Positions 51,445 through 59,006 of a DNA stretch of 64,000 bases are shown here, piece after piece. Location: contig CP030885.1 in the NCBI GenBank assembly GCA_006969625.1, forward strand, positions 3,917,430 through 3,981,429. Direction: 5' to 3'. Below the pieces are notes generated by a model. The model saw only the letters and a list, made by a program, of their open reading frames with translations. It had not been told where the DNA came from and did not search any database. The position numbers and the translations under genes are program-made. Source of the DNA: Rhodospirillaceae bacterium (GTDB lineage Bacteria > Pseudomonadota > Alphaproteobacteria > Kiloniellales > DSM-21159). How positions within the stretch are numbered: the first letter of the stretch is position 1; every line of letters starts with the position of its first letter.

Positions 51445-52863
51445 CGGCGAAAAGGGGGGGAGTGGCTCGACCCCGAGGGCCGCGCCCTCGCCCCCGACCG
51501 GGTCGAGGCCGCCCTGCGCCCGCTGCCGGCACCGGACGCCGAGCGGGCGCCCCAGGCCCCCCAGCCCCCCCGGCCCGAGGATACGCCCGGCGAGGCGGGC
51601 CTCCGCCGGATCGTCTGGCCGGACAGCCACAAGACCACCCGCGCCTACTTCCGTTGGCGCCTGACCGGAACCGCCGACCCCGCCGAGGCCGAAGCCCGCC
51701 TCCAACGCCTCGCCGCCCCCCGCACCGGCATCGGCACCGGCACCGGCACCGGCACAGGCACCAGCCCAGGCGGCCTCGCCGCCGAAGCCCAGGCCAACGC
51801 CGCCGGCCAGCACGCGGACGCTGGCGGCGCCTACACCCTCGCCGCCGGCGGCGGCGACGACCGGCTGGCCGCGCAAGACCCGGCGGCACCGCCGGATCGC
51901 GACGCAGCCGGGGGCGGCGGCGCCGACCCGCGCGACACGCAGGTGGCGATCGGCCTCGACGACGACGAGACTCCCTTCGGCCTCGGCGACGACTACGGCG
52001 CCGACATTTCCGAGGCGGAGGCCGACGCCCTCGAGGAGCTGATCGCGCGCGGCGCCGAGCTGAGCGGCCTGAGCGAAGACGAGCTGACGCGCGAGCTGGA
52101 GAAGCTGGTCCCGGTGCACGGCGCGCCGCTGCTCCTCGAGGACGGGCTGGAGGCGCTGGGCCAGGCCTGGAAGGCCCTGGAGGACAGGGACTACCTCGAC
52201 GCGCTCGCCGCCGCCGCCGACGGGGCGATCGAGCTGAGCGGTCTGGCGTTCGGCGCCGGCACCCTGGTCAAGGGCGCCAGGCTGGTCGGCAAGATCGGCG
52301 CCCGCCGGGCCCTCGATATCCTCGCCAGCCTGGCCAGGCACGGCCGCGGGCCGGGCCGGGACGGCCGCCTGCCGCCCGCCAACCCCGCCGCCCGCCTGCC
52401 CGAGGGCAGCGTCGCGCCCCTGCGCACCACCTCCGGCGCCCAGGCCCGCGTCGCCGTCGCCGGCCAGCGCCGCGCCGACGTCGAGCGCCTCGACACCGCC
52501 ATCGGCCACGTCACCGCGGCCGACGCCAGGTCAGTCACCGGCCTGATCGACGGCGGGCGCTTGGACATCGCCACAGATGCCGGCGAGAACGTCGTCAACA
52601 TCCAGAAGTCCGGCGGCGCCGCGGCGGCCGATGCGGCCTTCGAGCGGATCGTCAAGGAGCACGGCGGCTCGCTGGACGACGTGGTGCCGAACCCACGCGG
52701 GGTGCGCACGTTTACGACGAAGGACGGCACGACCTATTCGCGGTACGAAAGCTCTGGCGACAATGGTCAGACCGTATCCGTGATCATCGTTGCGCCTGGC
52801 GCGAACAGGAACAACCGCTTCGATCTCAAGGTTCGGTTCGATAACGCGGAGGTTTCGCGATGA
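51445..52863 (+). CDS. Cassette 3 orphan C-terminal module, candidate toxin
   Basis: Open from the poly-G tract (A4G7 near 51450-51460) to the TGA at 52861; first conventional start is GTG 51943. Shared block EWLDPEGRALAPD to LTGTADPAEAEARLQRLA, a long GTGTGTGT linker, then a unique region: IGLDDDETPFGLGDDYGADI, ELEKLVPVHGAPLLLEDGLE, a hydrophobic Gly/Ala stretch near 52230-52280 (SGLAFGAGTLVKGARLVGKI), and a compact end of about 100 residues (DIATDAGENVVNIQKSGG, TKDGTTYSRYESSG, NRFDLKVRFDNAEVSR). The last 130 bases are clearly lower in GC. The following gene overlaps by 4 bp. No known toxin family recognised. Confidence 0.7.
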   Translation, partial: RRKGGEWLDPEGRALAPDRVEAALRPLPAPDAERAPQAPQPPRPEDTPGEAGLRRIVWPDSHKTTRAYFRWRLTGTADPAEAEARLQRLAAPRTGIGTGTGTGTGTSPGGLAAEAQANAAGQHADAGGAYTLAAGGGDDRLAAQDPAAPPDRDAAGGGGADPRDTQVAIGLDDDETPFGLGDDYGADISEAEADALEELIARGAELSGLSEDELTRELEKLVPVHGAPLLLEDGLEALGQAWKALEDRDYLDALAAAADGAIELSGLAFGAGTLVKGARLVGKIGARRALDILASLARHGRGPGRDGRLPPANPAARLPEGSVAPLRTTSGAQARVAVAGQRRADVERLDTAIGHVTAADARSVTGLIDGGRLDIATDAGENVVNIQKSGGAAAADAAFERIVKEHGGSLDDVVPNPRGVRTFTTKDGTTYSRYESSGDNGQTVSVIIVAPGANRNNRFDLKVRFDNAEVSR

Positions 52864-53567
52864 AGACAAGGACTTTCGAGGGCTTCACCTTCCAAGTGCT
52901 GGAGCCGGCGGAAAGCTACGCACGAGCGATACCACTTTTCGGGCGCGTGTTCGTGCTTGCCGAGGACGGCGGTCTCGACAACTTCGCTATCTTCCCGAGG
53001 GGGAAGCCGCCGCGGATTTTCCGCAACGCCGACTGGCAAGTCGTCGCCCTCGTCGGCACGCCATTCTTCGCAGAGGACGAGGACTCGCTGCGGGGTAAAC
53101 CCCAGTGGTACCGCGAGCTGCACGGTCGCGACCATCTGGCGCCGCTGCTGCGGATACTGCAGGACCGCGGCACGCCGCATGTCTATCTGGCGCATATCGA
53201 TGAGCCGGCCCAGCAGGAAACCCTGCTGGCGCCGCCGCGGCGACCGGAGCTGAACGCGGCCTGGTATTCCGACGATCTGCTCGCGACGCTCTGCAGCTTC
53301 GCCGTGGACGATCACGCCGACTGGGGCTTGGTCGCTGACGAATACTGCATGTACCTCGGCGGCGAACCGGCGCTGATGCAGCGTTTCATCGCCGAGTCCG
53401 GCGGGCTGGACGAGCTGATCCGGCTGTTTTCGATGTACATCGAGGGGCCGGTGACGCCCGGCGAGCCCGGCTACACGGCCGGCGGAGCCCGTTTCCACCG
53501 CCGCCTCTACGACTACCTCGGCTGGCCCTGGCCCTTCGCCGAGCCACCGCCGTCGGCCTCGGCCTAG
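52860..53567 (+). CDS. Candidate immunity protein of cassette 3
   Basis: 235 residues, ATG 52860 overlapping the cassette 3 stop (ATGA), the classical toxin-immunity layout. No signal peptide or membrane span. FEGFTFQVLEPAESYARAIP, then DNFAIFPRGKPPRIFRNADW and VADEYCMYLGGEPALMQRF. No family recognised. The first third is lower in GC than the neighbourhood, as is the end of cassette 3, so the pair likely moved together. Confidence 0.7.
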   Translation: MKTRTFEGFTFQVLEPAESYARAIPLFGRVFVLAEDGGLDNFAIFPRGKPPRIFRNADWQVVALVGTPFFAEDEDSLRGKPQWYRELHGRDHLAPLLRILQDRGTPHVYLAHIDEPAQQETLLAPPRRPELNAAWYSDDLLATLCSFAVDDHADWGLVADEYCMYLGGEPALMQRFIAESGGLDELIRLFSMYIEGPVTPGEPGYTAGGARFHRRLYDYLGWPWPFAEPPPSASA

Positions 53568-53674
53568 GCCGGCGCACGCTTCGGCGCGGTAGGGGGCGCC
53601 TGCTGGCCTGCGGCGCTCCAGACGCCTGCCGCGCCGAAGCGCGGCGGCATCAGCCCCGGAACGGCAAGAGGGGG

Positions 53675-54649
53675 GAGTGGCTCGACCCCGAGGGCCGCGC
53701 TCTCGCCCCCGACCAGGTCGAGGCCGCCCTGCGCCCGCTCCCGGCACCGGACGCCGACCTGGCGCCTCAGCCTGAAGATACGCTCCTCCACCGGATCGTC
53801 TGGCCGGACAGCCACAAGACCACCCGCGCCGACTTCCGTTGGCGCCTGACCGGAACCGCCGACCCCGCCGAGGCCGAAGCCCGCCTCCAACGCCTCGCCG
53901 CCCCCCGCACCGGCACCGGCACCGGCACCGGCACCGGCCCAGGCACAGGCACAGGCCCAGGCGGCCTCGCCGCCGAAGCCCAGGCCAACGCCGCCGCGGC
54001 AGACGCCGCCGACGCCGAAGCGGGCCAACGCTCGGACGCTGGCGGCGCCGACGACCGCCTGCACCCGGCTGCAGGCCGCGACGGCCACCCCGGCGTCGGC
54101 GAGCGCTATGGCAAGCCGGACGGTCATCCCGGCGTCGGGCCGGGTGCCCCTCGGCAAGCGCCTCGTGCGAGCTCGGCCGCACCGCCGCCGGACGCCTCGG
54201 GCGAGAGTTGGACGCCGTCGAGCGCGCCAGAACCGGCGGCGACGCGCCAGCCCGCAGAGCCGCCGGTGAACCCCGACGACTACGATTGGGACCCGGCCCA
54301 GACGATAGACGTTGGTGAAGACATCCTGCTGGACGTGGACGGACCGATCCGCGTGGATCTGCGCACCTCGGCCTTCGGCGCGGACAGTCGCCACTACCGG
54401 GTGCAGTGGTACCCCCGGAACGCGGACGGCTCGACCGGGACGATCGTCACCACACCCGACGGCGCGGGCGGCACCCATCACGGCGGTCACGTCACGCTGC
54501 TCGGTCCGGCAACGGAGTACATTGCGCCGCCTTTCCAAAGCCAGCACGGCTACCGCGTGCGGATCGCGGTGCCGCCCGACGGCGGCAAGTCGCATGGCGC
54601 GGCAGCGAGCTATCTGCATATCTACCGTGGACAGCGCCGCGAGAAGTAA
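53675..54649 (+). CDS. Cassette 4 orphan C-terminal module
   Basis: Family homology starts abruptly at GGGGGGAGTGG (about 53669), that is, at the conserved EWLDPEGRALAPDQ block, with no upstream linker at all. The frame is open to the TAA at 54647 with the first conventional start at GTG 54266. The shared block is followed by a GTGTGTGP linker, DGHPGVGERYGKPDGHPGVG, and a unique beta-rich end: TIDVGEDILLDVDGPIRVDL, HYRVQWYPRNADGSTG, GYRVRIAVPPDGGKSHGA. No catalytic motif recognised. It is followed by the small membrane-anchored gene that the 809-bp element splits. Confidence 0.65.
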   Translation, partial: EWLDPEGRALAPDQVEAALRPLPAPDADLAPQPEDTLLHRIVWPDSHKTTRADFRWRLTGTADPAEAEARLQRLAAPRTGTGTGTGTGPGTGTGPGGLAAEAQANAAAADAADAEAGQRSDAGGADDRLHPAAGRDGHPGVGERYGKPDGHPGVGPGAPRQAPRASSAAPPPDASGESWTPSSAPEPAATRQPAEPPVNPDDYDWDPAQTIDVGEDILLDVDGPIRVDLRTSAFGADSRHYRVQWYPRNADGSTGTIVTTPDGAGGTHHGGHVTLLGPATEYIAPPFQSQHGYRVRIAVPPDGGKSHGAAASYLHIYRGQRREK

Positions 54650-55048: not shown

Positions 55049-55076
55049 CGAAGTTCGGTAGTGTCTCAGTTTGAAA
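55049..55076 (+). repeat. Left target duplication and terminal inverted repeat of the 809-bp element
   Basis: CGAAGTTC followed by GGTAGTGTCTCAGTTTGAAA. Confidence 0.95.
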
Positions 55077-55166
55077 CCCGCAGACTTTGACCGTGCCCTG
55101 GTGCGACCCCGACAAAAAGCGGCTCTGATGCGCCAATCTGCTTCGGTATTGTCCACTGAGAACAAG

Positions 55167-55727
55167 TCACGCTGAGATTAACCGGCCGACTTCGCCAAGA
55201 GTTGCGTGAATGTGTTCGCGGCACCTTTGCCGATTGTAAGACATGGCCCCTGGATGGAAGGTCTCAAAAACCTGGCACGGGATTTTCAGGCGCGGCCTCG
55301 CGATCTGCGCTTTCCGGCCACAAAGGACGATAGCCTTGAGGTTGGGCAATAGATCAATGAGCTGTTGCGTGTATGGAACAGCCAGCCGGATTTGAGCAGC
55401 CGAGGCATTCTTGTTGCGCTCGATGCTGGACACGCAATAAGGCACGACATTCCACAGGATGGTATCGGATCGAGCGATACCAGATGTGGCGAGTGCCGCG
55501 CCGATATTCCTTGCAGACGGGTCCGGGTTGTCTCGCGAGATGAAGCCGGTGCCTACGGCTCTTGGACCGGGCGATTCGAGTAGAACCAGTATCGTGGCGT
55601 TAACACCGCCGTCATTCGGATCGAGGTTCGGAACATCGAGCCCTCTCGAACGCCAGCTTTCTACTAGGCGCATAAGAGGCCGCATGTGCGGCTCCTCTAG
55701 GCGTTTTCGTCGTTGATCAAGGTTCAT
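55167..55727 (-). CDS. Uracil-DNA glycosylase superfamily protein, element cargo
   Basis: 186 residues. A UDG-fold core: ATILVLLESPGPRAVGTGF takes the place of the water-activating motif, LWNVVPYC is the strand before the base pocket, AIVLCGRKAQ the central strand, and ETFHPGAMSYNR the HPS/HPG-type DNA-intercalation motif with its His. The Asp usually seen in the first motif of family 1-4 enzymes is replaced by Glu/Ser, so catalysis on uracil is not certain. The coding GC content is much lower than the genome, marking foreign origin. A palindrome 35 bp upstream may regulate it. Confidence 0.75.
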   Translation of the reverse strand: MNLDQRRKRLEEPHMRPLMRLVESWRSRGLDVPNLDPNDGGVNATILVLLESPGPRAVGTGFISRDNPDPSARNIGAALATSGIARSDTILWNVVPYCVSSIERNKNASAAQIRLAVPYTQQLIDLLPNLKAIVLCGRKAQIARPRLKIPCQVFETFHPGAMSYNRQRCREHIHATLGEVGRLISA

Positions 55728-55761
55728 CCGGCTTTCTCAAAGACGCAAGCCCGACGCGACG

Positions 55762-55779
55762 TGCTATCACGTGATAGCA
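55762..55779. promoter_or_regulatory. Perfect 18-bp palindrome upstream of the UDG-like gene
   Basis: TGCTATCACGTGATAGCA, 35 bp upstream of the cargo gene start codon and inside the element. It looks like an operator for a dimeric repressor; no repressor gene is carried. Confidence 0.5.
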
Positions 55780-55845
55780 GGCTCGAGGACATACCTGCAC
55801 GATGGGCGAGTATGGCCCAAGGTCAGGGCGGTCAAGGGCGCCGAA

Positions 55846-55873
55846 TTTCAAACTGAGACACTACCCGAAGTTC
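55846..55873 (-). repeat. Right terminal inverted repeat and target duplication of the 809-bp element
   Basis: TTTCAAACTGAGACACTACC followed by CGAAGTTC; all 20 positions pair with the left end. Confidence 0.95.
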
Positions 55874-56184
55874 TATGTCTGGTTCTCGCAGCAGTGCGAC
55901 CGGAAGATGGCGCTGCTGCAGCCGGCGGTCGACGCCTTCAACGCCCGTCATGGCGAGGTCGCGACGCTTTCGCTCCACCCGGGCCGCGTCGAACCTGGGC
56001 CGGACACCGTCATGTTCGGCGGACCGCACTGGAAGCCCGAGTGAGGCCGACGCGCCTCGGGCCGGTCCGCCCGAAACCGCCGCGCCGCTGAGGCGGCTGC
56101 CCGGCGTCGCCCCCGAGGGCTCGGCGCACTTCCGCTTCTCGCCTGGTCGCTGAGACGGAGGCGAAGGTCCGGGCGCCGGGCCGA

Positions 56185-57606: not shown

Positions 57607-57746
57607 CTAGAGCGCGATCGTCACTGGTGGAAGCGGATCGGCTTCCACCAGTGACGTGAATCGCTCTCTAACTCCATGAATAGAGCAGGATTCACGTCTT
57701 GGATGGGATCGCCAAAGCGATTCCATCCAAGACGATCCTGCTCTAG
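57607..57746. repeat. Paired palindromic repeat units left of IS481 copy 2
   Basis: Begins and ends with CTAG. Unit one: AGAGCGCGATC, a perfect 15-bp stem (57620-57634 with 57641-57655), GTGAATCGCTCT. Unit two: TAGAGCAGGATTCAC, a 17-bp stem with one mismatch (57696-57712 with 57717-57733), GATCCTGCTCTAG. Arms are constant while the stems are unrelated to each other. Confidence 0.9.
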
Positions 57747-58699
57747 GTGTGGAGCCTCAATAGGTTGTTCCTGTCGAAGCCGGGTCGGCTGATTGGCGGT
57801 TTGTTCATCAAGCTGGCATGTGGTCGGTGCCAGTTGTAGGCGTGCGTCCAGGGGCACAGGTCTTGAGCGCGTTGGTCTGATGTTTCGTAGGCTGTGGCAT
57901 AGGCCCACTCGCGCAGGGCGGTCTGGATGAAGCGCTCGGCCTTGCCATTGGTTTTGGGTGTGTAGGGTCTTGTGCGGATGTGTTTGAGGCCGAGGCTTCG
58001 GCAAGCCTTGGCGAAGGCCTTTGATATGTAGCAGCTTCCATTGTCGGTCATGACGCGCTCAACGGTGATGCCGAGGCGCCGGTAGTAGCCGACGGCGGCC
58101 TTGAGGAAGGCGATGGCGCTCTCCTTTTTCTCATCGGGCATGGTGTCGGTGAAGGCGATGCGGGAGTGGTCGTCGATGGCGACGTGGACGAACTCCCAGC
58201 CGACGCCGCGGCTGTTGGACTGGCCGGTCCTGTCACCGGTGATGCGGTGTCCGGTGCGCTCGAAGCGTCCGAGCTTCTTGATGTCGAGGTGGATCATCTC
58301 GCCGGGTCTTGCACGTTCGTAGCGCCTGGGCGGTTCGGCCGGCTCCAGGGCCTTGAGCTTGTTGAGGCCACAGCGCTTGAGGACGCGGCTGACCGTGGCC
58401 GGCGAGACGCCGAGCTCGGCGGCGATCCGCCGGCTTGTCCAGCGTTGCCGGCGCAACGCCTCGATGCGGCTGATGGCCTCTTTGGAGGTCGGTTGATTGA
58501 GTCGGCGCGGCCTGGAGGATCTGTCGCGCAGCCCCGGCTCTCCCTCTGCCTGGAAGCGTCGGACCCATTTGCGAACGGTCTTCGAGGTGACGCCAAAGGC
58601 GGCGGCGACATCGCACAAGGGCTGGCGATGAACGAGCACGCGGCGGACCAGATCGGCTCGACTGCGTGGCGTCAAACGGGCATTCTCATGGCTGTTCAT
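57743..58699 (-). CDS. IS481-family transposase, copy 2
   Basis: 318 residues, differing from copy 1 by Glu to Gly and Pro to Ser in the linker after the first HTH and by the last residue (Thr), which comes from the target-derived base next to the TAG stop. All catalytic residues are kept. Confidence 0.95.
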   Translation of the reverse strand: MNSHENARLTPRSRADLVRRVLVHRQPLCDVAAAFGVTSKTVRKWVRRFQAEGEPGLRDRSSRPRRLNQPTSKEAISRIEALRRQRWTSRRIAAELGVSPATVSRVLKRCGLNKLKALEPAEPPRRYERARPGEMIHLDIKKLGRFERTGHRITGDRTGQSNSRGVGWEFVHVAIDDHSRIAFTDTMPDEKKESAIAFLKAAVGYYRRLGITVERVMTDNGSCYISKAFAKACRSLGLKHIRTRPYTPKTNGKAERFIQTALREWAYATAYETSDQRAQDLCPWTHAYNWHRPHASLMNKPPISRPGFDRNNLLRLHT

Positions 58700-58785
58700 C
58701 CGGGCCTCCTTCCGGGAGAGTCTGAAATCTCGCAATTCCAGCTTCCTCGGTTCGGTCCGGATGGACAACCTGCTGAAAGCTCACA
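57748..58785 (-). mobile_element. IS481-family insertion sequence, copy 2
   Basis: Nearly identical to 11519-12556 and in the same orientation. Flanks: TCTAGG left, TCTAGA right. It sits at the shared CTAG between two palindromic repeat units, so the target was a repeat boundary. Confidence 0.92.
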
Positions 58786-58853
58786 TCTAGAGCGCGATTC
58801 ACGTCTTGGATGGGATCGCCAAAGCGATTCCAACCAAGACGATCCTGCTCTAG
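58786..58853. repeat. Palindromic repeat unit right of IS481 copy 2
   Basis: TCTAGAGCGCGATTCAC, a 17-bp stem with two mismatches (58803-58819 with 58824-58840), GATCCTGCTCTAG. The stem is the same as unit two on the left side but with one base changed. Confidence 0.9.
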
Positions 58854-59006
58854 GGCACCGTGGCGCGCTTCGATGCAGCCGACGCCGCGGCCTTGCGGAC
58901 GTGCGGCCTGCAGGGGCCGGGACGTGCTGCCGGCCTGCACTCGGCAGGGGCGGTCGACCTGAGCAAGACGGAAGGGATCGCCCAAGCCGTCAAAGCACTG
59001 ATCTGA
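58853..59006 (+). pseudogene. C-terminal remnant of an unidentified protein
   Basis: In frame with a TGA at 59004 the strand reads GTVARFDAADAAALRTCGLQ and, further on, VDLSKTEGIAQAVKALI, which looks like a genuine protein end. The frame is cut at its 5' side by the palindromic repeat and IS481. Its end overlaps the convergent kinase gene by 17 bp. No family recognised. Confidence 0.45.

Follow-up and report, generated by a model that had tools for sequence, protein, structure and literature searches.

A DNA glycosylase is an odd gene to travel alone. In a Rhodospirillaceae chromosome, within the 64,000-nucleotide stretch that we analysed (the window), a uracil-DNA-glycosylase (UDG) superfamily gene lies between short inverted repeats in the middle of an interrupted gene. 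The locus raises three questions: whether this is a genuine mobile element, what could have moved it, and whether the glycosylase serves the element or the cell. Our preferred answer, to which we give a probability of about 85%, is that it is a passenger-only member of an IS1-related transposon family and that its UDG passenger was selected for a cellular role and not for transposition.

A mini-element inserted in a small host gene

The element occupies 55057-55865 (809 bp) and is bounded by identical 20-bp inverted ends, GGTAGTGTCTCAGTTTGAAA, with the 8-bp sequence CGAAGTTC repeated directly outside them, exactly as the initial annotation had described (Table 1). Beyond 20 bp the arms continue to pair, with 84% complementarity over 37 nt. 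Chance can be ruled out as the source of the ends, since nowhere else in the window do two perfect 20-bp inverted repeats lie within 5 kb of each other.

Table 1. Coordinates of the element, its insertion site and its candidate regulatory sequences.
Feature	Position	Strand	Evidence or remark
Interrupted gene, 5' part, 88 codons	54793..55056	+	Codon-position G+C same as 3' part
Target-site duplication, 8 bp, left copy CGAAGTTC	55049..55056		Directly outside the left end; of the first 43 elements sharing the ends, 40 have a perfect 8-bp duplication
Left terminal inverted repeat GGTAGTGTCTCAGTTTGAAA	55057..55076	+	Imperfect pairing extends to 55093
UDG-superfamily gene, 186 residues, the element's only gene	55167..55727	-	Pfam PF03167; 72% identity to L007 UDG; E51/N93 retained
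Perfect 18-bp palindrome TGCTATCACGTGATAGCA, upstream of UDG gene	55762..55779		Unique in genome within 3 mismatches
TTGACC, candidate -35 element reading into cargo	55830..55835	-	Just inside UDG-side end
Right terminal inverted repeat	55846..55865	-	Identical to left; imperfect pairing extends to 55829
Target-site duplication, 8 bp, right copy CGAAGTTC	55866..55873		Same 8 bp as the left copy
Interrupted gene, 3' part, 56 codons and stop	55874..56044	+	Codon-position G+C same as 5' part

The insertion can also be read from the gene that it disrupts. As had been noticed from the sequence at the outset, removing 817 bp joins two open frames, and the 88 and 56 codons on either side fuse into a single frame of 144 residues. 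G+C content at the three codon positions is alike in the two halves (0.72/0.47/0.86 versus 0.70/0.47/0.86), and they are therefore parts of one real gene split by the element. The foreign, low-G+C composition ascribed to the insert is equally evident, at 56.6% against 70.8% for the window. An empty site could not be demonstrated in relatives, the same genus included, because neither the split gene nor its neighbour has a convincing relative in the genomes that we tested, again including the same genus.

Within the 809 bp we detected neither a transposase nor the remnant of one. The element is therefore a derivative of an insertion sequence (IS) and not an IS itself. An Rfam search gave no match. 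Apart from its own two ends, the 4.62-Mb genome contains no further copy of the 20-bp sequence with up to three mismatches.

Two other features of the neighbourhood deserve mention. An IS481-type transposase gene lies about 3 kb away (57743-58768, minus strand), accompanied by a related fragment (58686-58985, minus strand) that partially repeats its end region. On the other side, two similar G+C-rich, low-complexity stretches with HRHRHRH-type frames adjoin small paralogous genes at 51462-54318, where a gene cluster has apparently been duplicated.

A family of IS1-related transposons with the same ends

With up to two mismatches allowed, the 20-bp end matched in 13 of the 61 genomes searched from the window's order; with at most one, it matched in 17 of the 398 from the phylum, and 16 of these 17 belong to the window's own class. 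Viral contigs contributed 93 stretches with the exact end. When the ends were paired and their flanks tested, 43 distinct elements (396-4616 bp) emerged, and 40 of them had a perfect 8-bp duplication; with plasmid records and further genomes, the set grew to about 50 distinct elements of 308-4616 bp. The insertion reading would have been in difficulty had the ends been found around no other DNA, and they clearly surround many other genes.

A full IS1-like DDE transposase of approximately 295 residues is present in 18 of the first 43 elements. It matches Pfam DDE_Tnp_IS1 (PF03400) above the cut-off (1.1e-7) and reaches 78 bits against NCBIfam transpos_IS1, for which the cut-off is 100. In plasmid records of Hoeflea, Acidiphilium and Mesorhizobium the same transposase is annotated as 'IS1 family transposase', and the plasmid copies L166, L167 and L169 have ends and a duplication like those of the 809-bp element. 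The ends begin with GGT and the target duplication is 8 bp, in agreement with the GGT and 8-9 bp expected of the IS1 family. The original description of the 809 bp as a non-autonomous mobile element is supported.

The expectation that the end would be found next to a transposase was borne out in relatives, including an autonomous 3431-bp copy with an exact end in a genome of the same genus (locus L129 in genome G004), but not in the window's own genome, where we found no family transposase. Present there as a single copy and with no detectable family transposase to serve it, the element is therefore probably unable to move at present without help. The relatives suggest how it could have arrived. 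The transposase of an autonomous relative, acting in trans, would recognise the 20-bp ends, cut or copy the 809 bp between them and insert it into the small host gene, producing the 8-bp duplication. The UDG gene would then occupy the place where other family members hold other cargo.

We also considered whether the ends derive from IS1595. The genome contains four IS1595 transposase matches (G000:C1:1518769, 2227859, 4273367-4274634), one with an internal stop and one seemingly split; their loci lack these ends, and we rejected this origin.

Cargo varies widely across the family. Autonomous copies often contain toxin-antitoxin or defence-like genes, among them RmrA-like and PD-Lambda-2-like HTH/IrrE proteins, HEC-04, HEC-09/NYN, PD-T4-5, P63C and a RES-Xre pair. 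PADLOC matched about 10 of 50 cargo proteins compared with up to 4 of 50 flanking proteins used as a control, a defence excess that is suggestive but not significant with 50 proteins in each set. Elements lacking a transposase contain a sulfotransferase with a GYD protein (L179), a DUF4440/SnoaL protein (L184), a methyltransferase (L030), an EamA transporter (L137), a DNA methyltransferase (L096) or a Panacea protein (L070). In L180 (279-825), a GNAT acetyltransferase is the only gene and its frame runs nearly from end to end of the 547-bp element. The initial annotation had called a repair enzyme as sole passenger unusual. This is true of the enzyme, as UDG was seen as cargo in just two elements, but not of the arrangement, since single-gene, passenger-only elements are common (GNAT, sulfotransferase, DUF4440/SnoaL and methyltransferase among them).

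This survey bears directly on the suggestion that the glycosylase benefits the element that carries it, for instance by guarding transposition intermediates that are single-stranded or deaminated. The UDG gene is indeed the only gene of the element, and the combination occurs twice. Nevertheless, over 40 elements that share these ends are or were mobile without a UDG gene, and the transposase alone suffices for the autonomous copies. The UDG is therefore a passenger and not a transposition factor, and we regard a role in transposition as the least credible of the explanations weighed here.

Most autonomous elements also encode a small basic protein of about 75-90 aa (L084:3544-3807, L099, L129 and many others) with the pattern KGPxGxKRPADxxxxA...GGxARAxxLSPERRxEIAKKAAxARW, annotated as 'histone H1' or hypothetical. 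No Pfam family matches it; an accessory or regulatory role is possible.

The ends themselves may contribute to cargo expression. TTGAC lies directly inside 22 of 86 ends of elements with the same ends, compared with a background of 2.4%, and in autonomous elements it is found at 10 of 18 cargo-side ends versus 1 of 18 opposite (transposase-side) ends. Together with its presence at the UDG-side end, this bias suggests that part of the cargo's promoter may come from the ends; we found no full sigma-70 promoter match. Upstream of the UDG gene, the perfect palindrome TGCTATCACGTGATAGCA, which none of the other loci contains, is a possible operator.

The glycosylase passenger and its counterpart in Acidobacteria

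The assignment of the cargo to the UDG superfamily was upheld by Pfam (UDG, PF03167; E = 2.6e-7), with 31.2 bits against a curated cut-off of 24.3. E51 and N93 are invariant in an alignment of 12 relatives. Although a single-sequence phmmer search of the PDB returned nothing, the profile of the 12-sequence alignment matched TM0511 (PDB 1vk2) best among solved structures, weakly (E = 0.001), and in this comparison E51 and N93 align with the motif glutamate and asparagine of family-4 UDGs. As judged from these alignments, the catalytic and base-binding residues of the superfamily are kept in the cargo protein. Structure prediction from two sequences gave no usable model (pLDDT 36). We infer that the protein is a DNA glycosylase acting on uracil or a related DNA base; on the plain reading, its role would be base-excision repair of uracil.

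A scan of genome contigs identified the closest relative of the cargo UDG, 72% identical, in an acidobacterial metagenome-assembled genome, and so provided the other copy with the same cargo that had been looked for. This gene, too, lies in an element (L007), 663 bp long, with the same ends apart from one and two mismatches. The stop codon of its UDG falls inside the right end, and its target duplication has decayed, with 3 of 8 positions mismatched. The same genome encodes a 59%-identical transposase adjoining a recognisable end. All remaining relatives of the cargo UDG are 34-46% identical and have ordinary locations on chromosomes and plasmids. We found no further UDG cassettes in viral contigs, and none besides the two known in 349 genomes of the window's phylum and 396 of the acidobacterial phylum.

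Comparison of the two UDGs gave a pN of 0.19 and a pS of 0.79, at which silent sites are saturated. The association of UDG and cassette is therefore old, and the protein has been kept under purifying selection between the two copies. Because the same ends surround other cargo and IS1-like transposases, and because the UDG cassette recurs in a second phylum, we conclude that the 809-bp element is a genuine one-gene cassette, both old and transferable.

These comparisons leave little room for the idea that two ends happened to enclose the UDG gene, which would then be a neutral hitchhiker in the course of decay. The cassette is a single copy and immobile in the window's genome, as such an accident would be. 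However, purifying selection between the two copies is strong, the catalytic positions are retained in both UDGs, and the frame is intact with a G+C content below that of the host; we consider neutral carriage very improbable, if marginally less so than a role in transposition.

How often the gene was captured is a separate matter. The ends upstream of the UDG gene agree between the window and L007 at 26 of 28 bases, slightly past the 20-bp end, and a similar match past the end is also seen in some elements without UDG. On the simplest reading, the gene was captured once and has since persisted for a long time as a mobile cassette, but two separate captures of close UDG relatives may also have occurred.

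Uracil repair, phage defence and known systems

If the passenger serves the cell, it need not do so by ordinary repair. The cassette might be a mobile anti-phage defence gene whose glycosylase excises modified phage bases in the manner of Brig1 and Brig3, and there is precedent, as enzymes of the UDG superfamily have been proven to act in defence (PMC11078745, PMC13160076). The setting is also suggestive: defence and toxin-antitoxin-like genes are frequent in related autonomous elements, including DNA methyltransferases and Panacea, and the host genome has three more UDG-superfamily genes, so that a fourth for plain uracil seems redundant. Against this, the passenger-only relatives hold ordinary enzymes, the distant UDG relatives sit in ordinary neighbourhoods, and the PADLOC excess of cargo over flanking genes is unclear. 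The cargo UDG itself matches no PADLOC family, in a copy of PADLOC that has no Brig model. By alignment, moreover, the position of Glu147 in Brig1 would correspond to Asn93 here, as in uracil-specific enzymes. On balance we find phage-base excision less likely than ordinary uracil repair, and would call it an unlikely alternative. Somewhat more doubtful still is the fuller proposal that the IS1-related family is a general one-gene shuttle and that this cassette would be a transposable, Brig-like defence gene attacking phage bases in two phyla.

The comparison with Brig1 and Brig3 thus rests on a UDG-superfamily protein in a mobile or defence setting. The cargo protein has no detected sequence link to the Brig proteins and has asparagine, not glutamate, at the base-recognition position, and the 809-bp element has no adjacent defence genes in the window. 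The family-4 UDGs, represented by Thermotoga TM0511, provide the best match of the profile to a solved structure. The cargo protein retains their motif glutamate and asparagine as well as His-Pro, the last as His158-Pro159 in both element-borne UDGs. Family-4 enzymes, however, hold a 4Fe-4S cluster with four cysteines, whereas the 12 relatives share no invariant cysteine column, and the cargo protein scores 21.3 bits against the NCBIfam family-4 model (TIGR00758), far under its cut-off of 125.3.

The mini-element, at first sight isolated, is thus linked to a large group of IS1-related transposons that has been little described; one-gene copies with only a passenger occur there beside autonomous copies that often hold toxin-antitoxin or defence-like genes. 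Such genes can be searched for directly by the simple 20-bp ends, and a glycosylase kept by selection as a passenger in two phyla makes a definite candidate repair or anti-phage enzyme. Classical IS1, by comparison, is small, has two frames and holds no cargo. The present family resembles it in a partner transposase of the PF03400 DDE type, ends beginning with GGT and a short target duplication, but differs in a transposase that falls under the NCBIfam IS1 cut-off and in elements of 0.3-4.6 kb with varied cargo. Among the papers that we searched, none described IS1-type elements or cassettes with cargo.

The closest parallel is in overall design. Read from its sequence, the anatomy of the 809-bp element is that of a mobile insertion cassette: IS ends and a target duplication surround a passenger, there is no transposase, and 18 autonomous elements with the same ends exist, among them L129 in the same genus. 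The term was coined for MIC231 of Bacillus cereus and has also been applied to the qnrS2 cassette of Aeromonas pAC3 (PMC5444012). Unlike those cassettes, the present one is IS1-related and not of the IS231/IS4 type, and has a DNA glycosylase as its passenger. Like them, it combines IS-type ends and direct repeats with a passenger in the transposase's place, and is presumably moved in trans.
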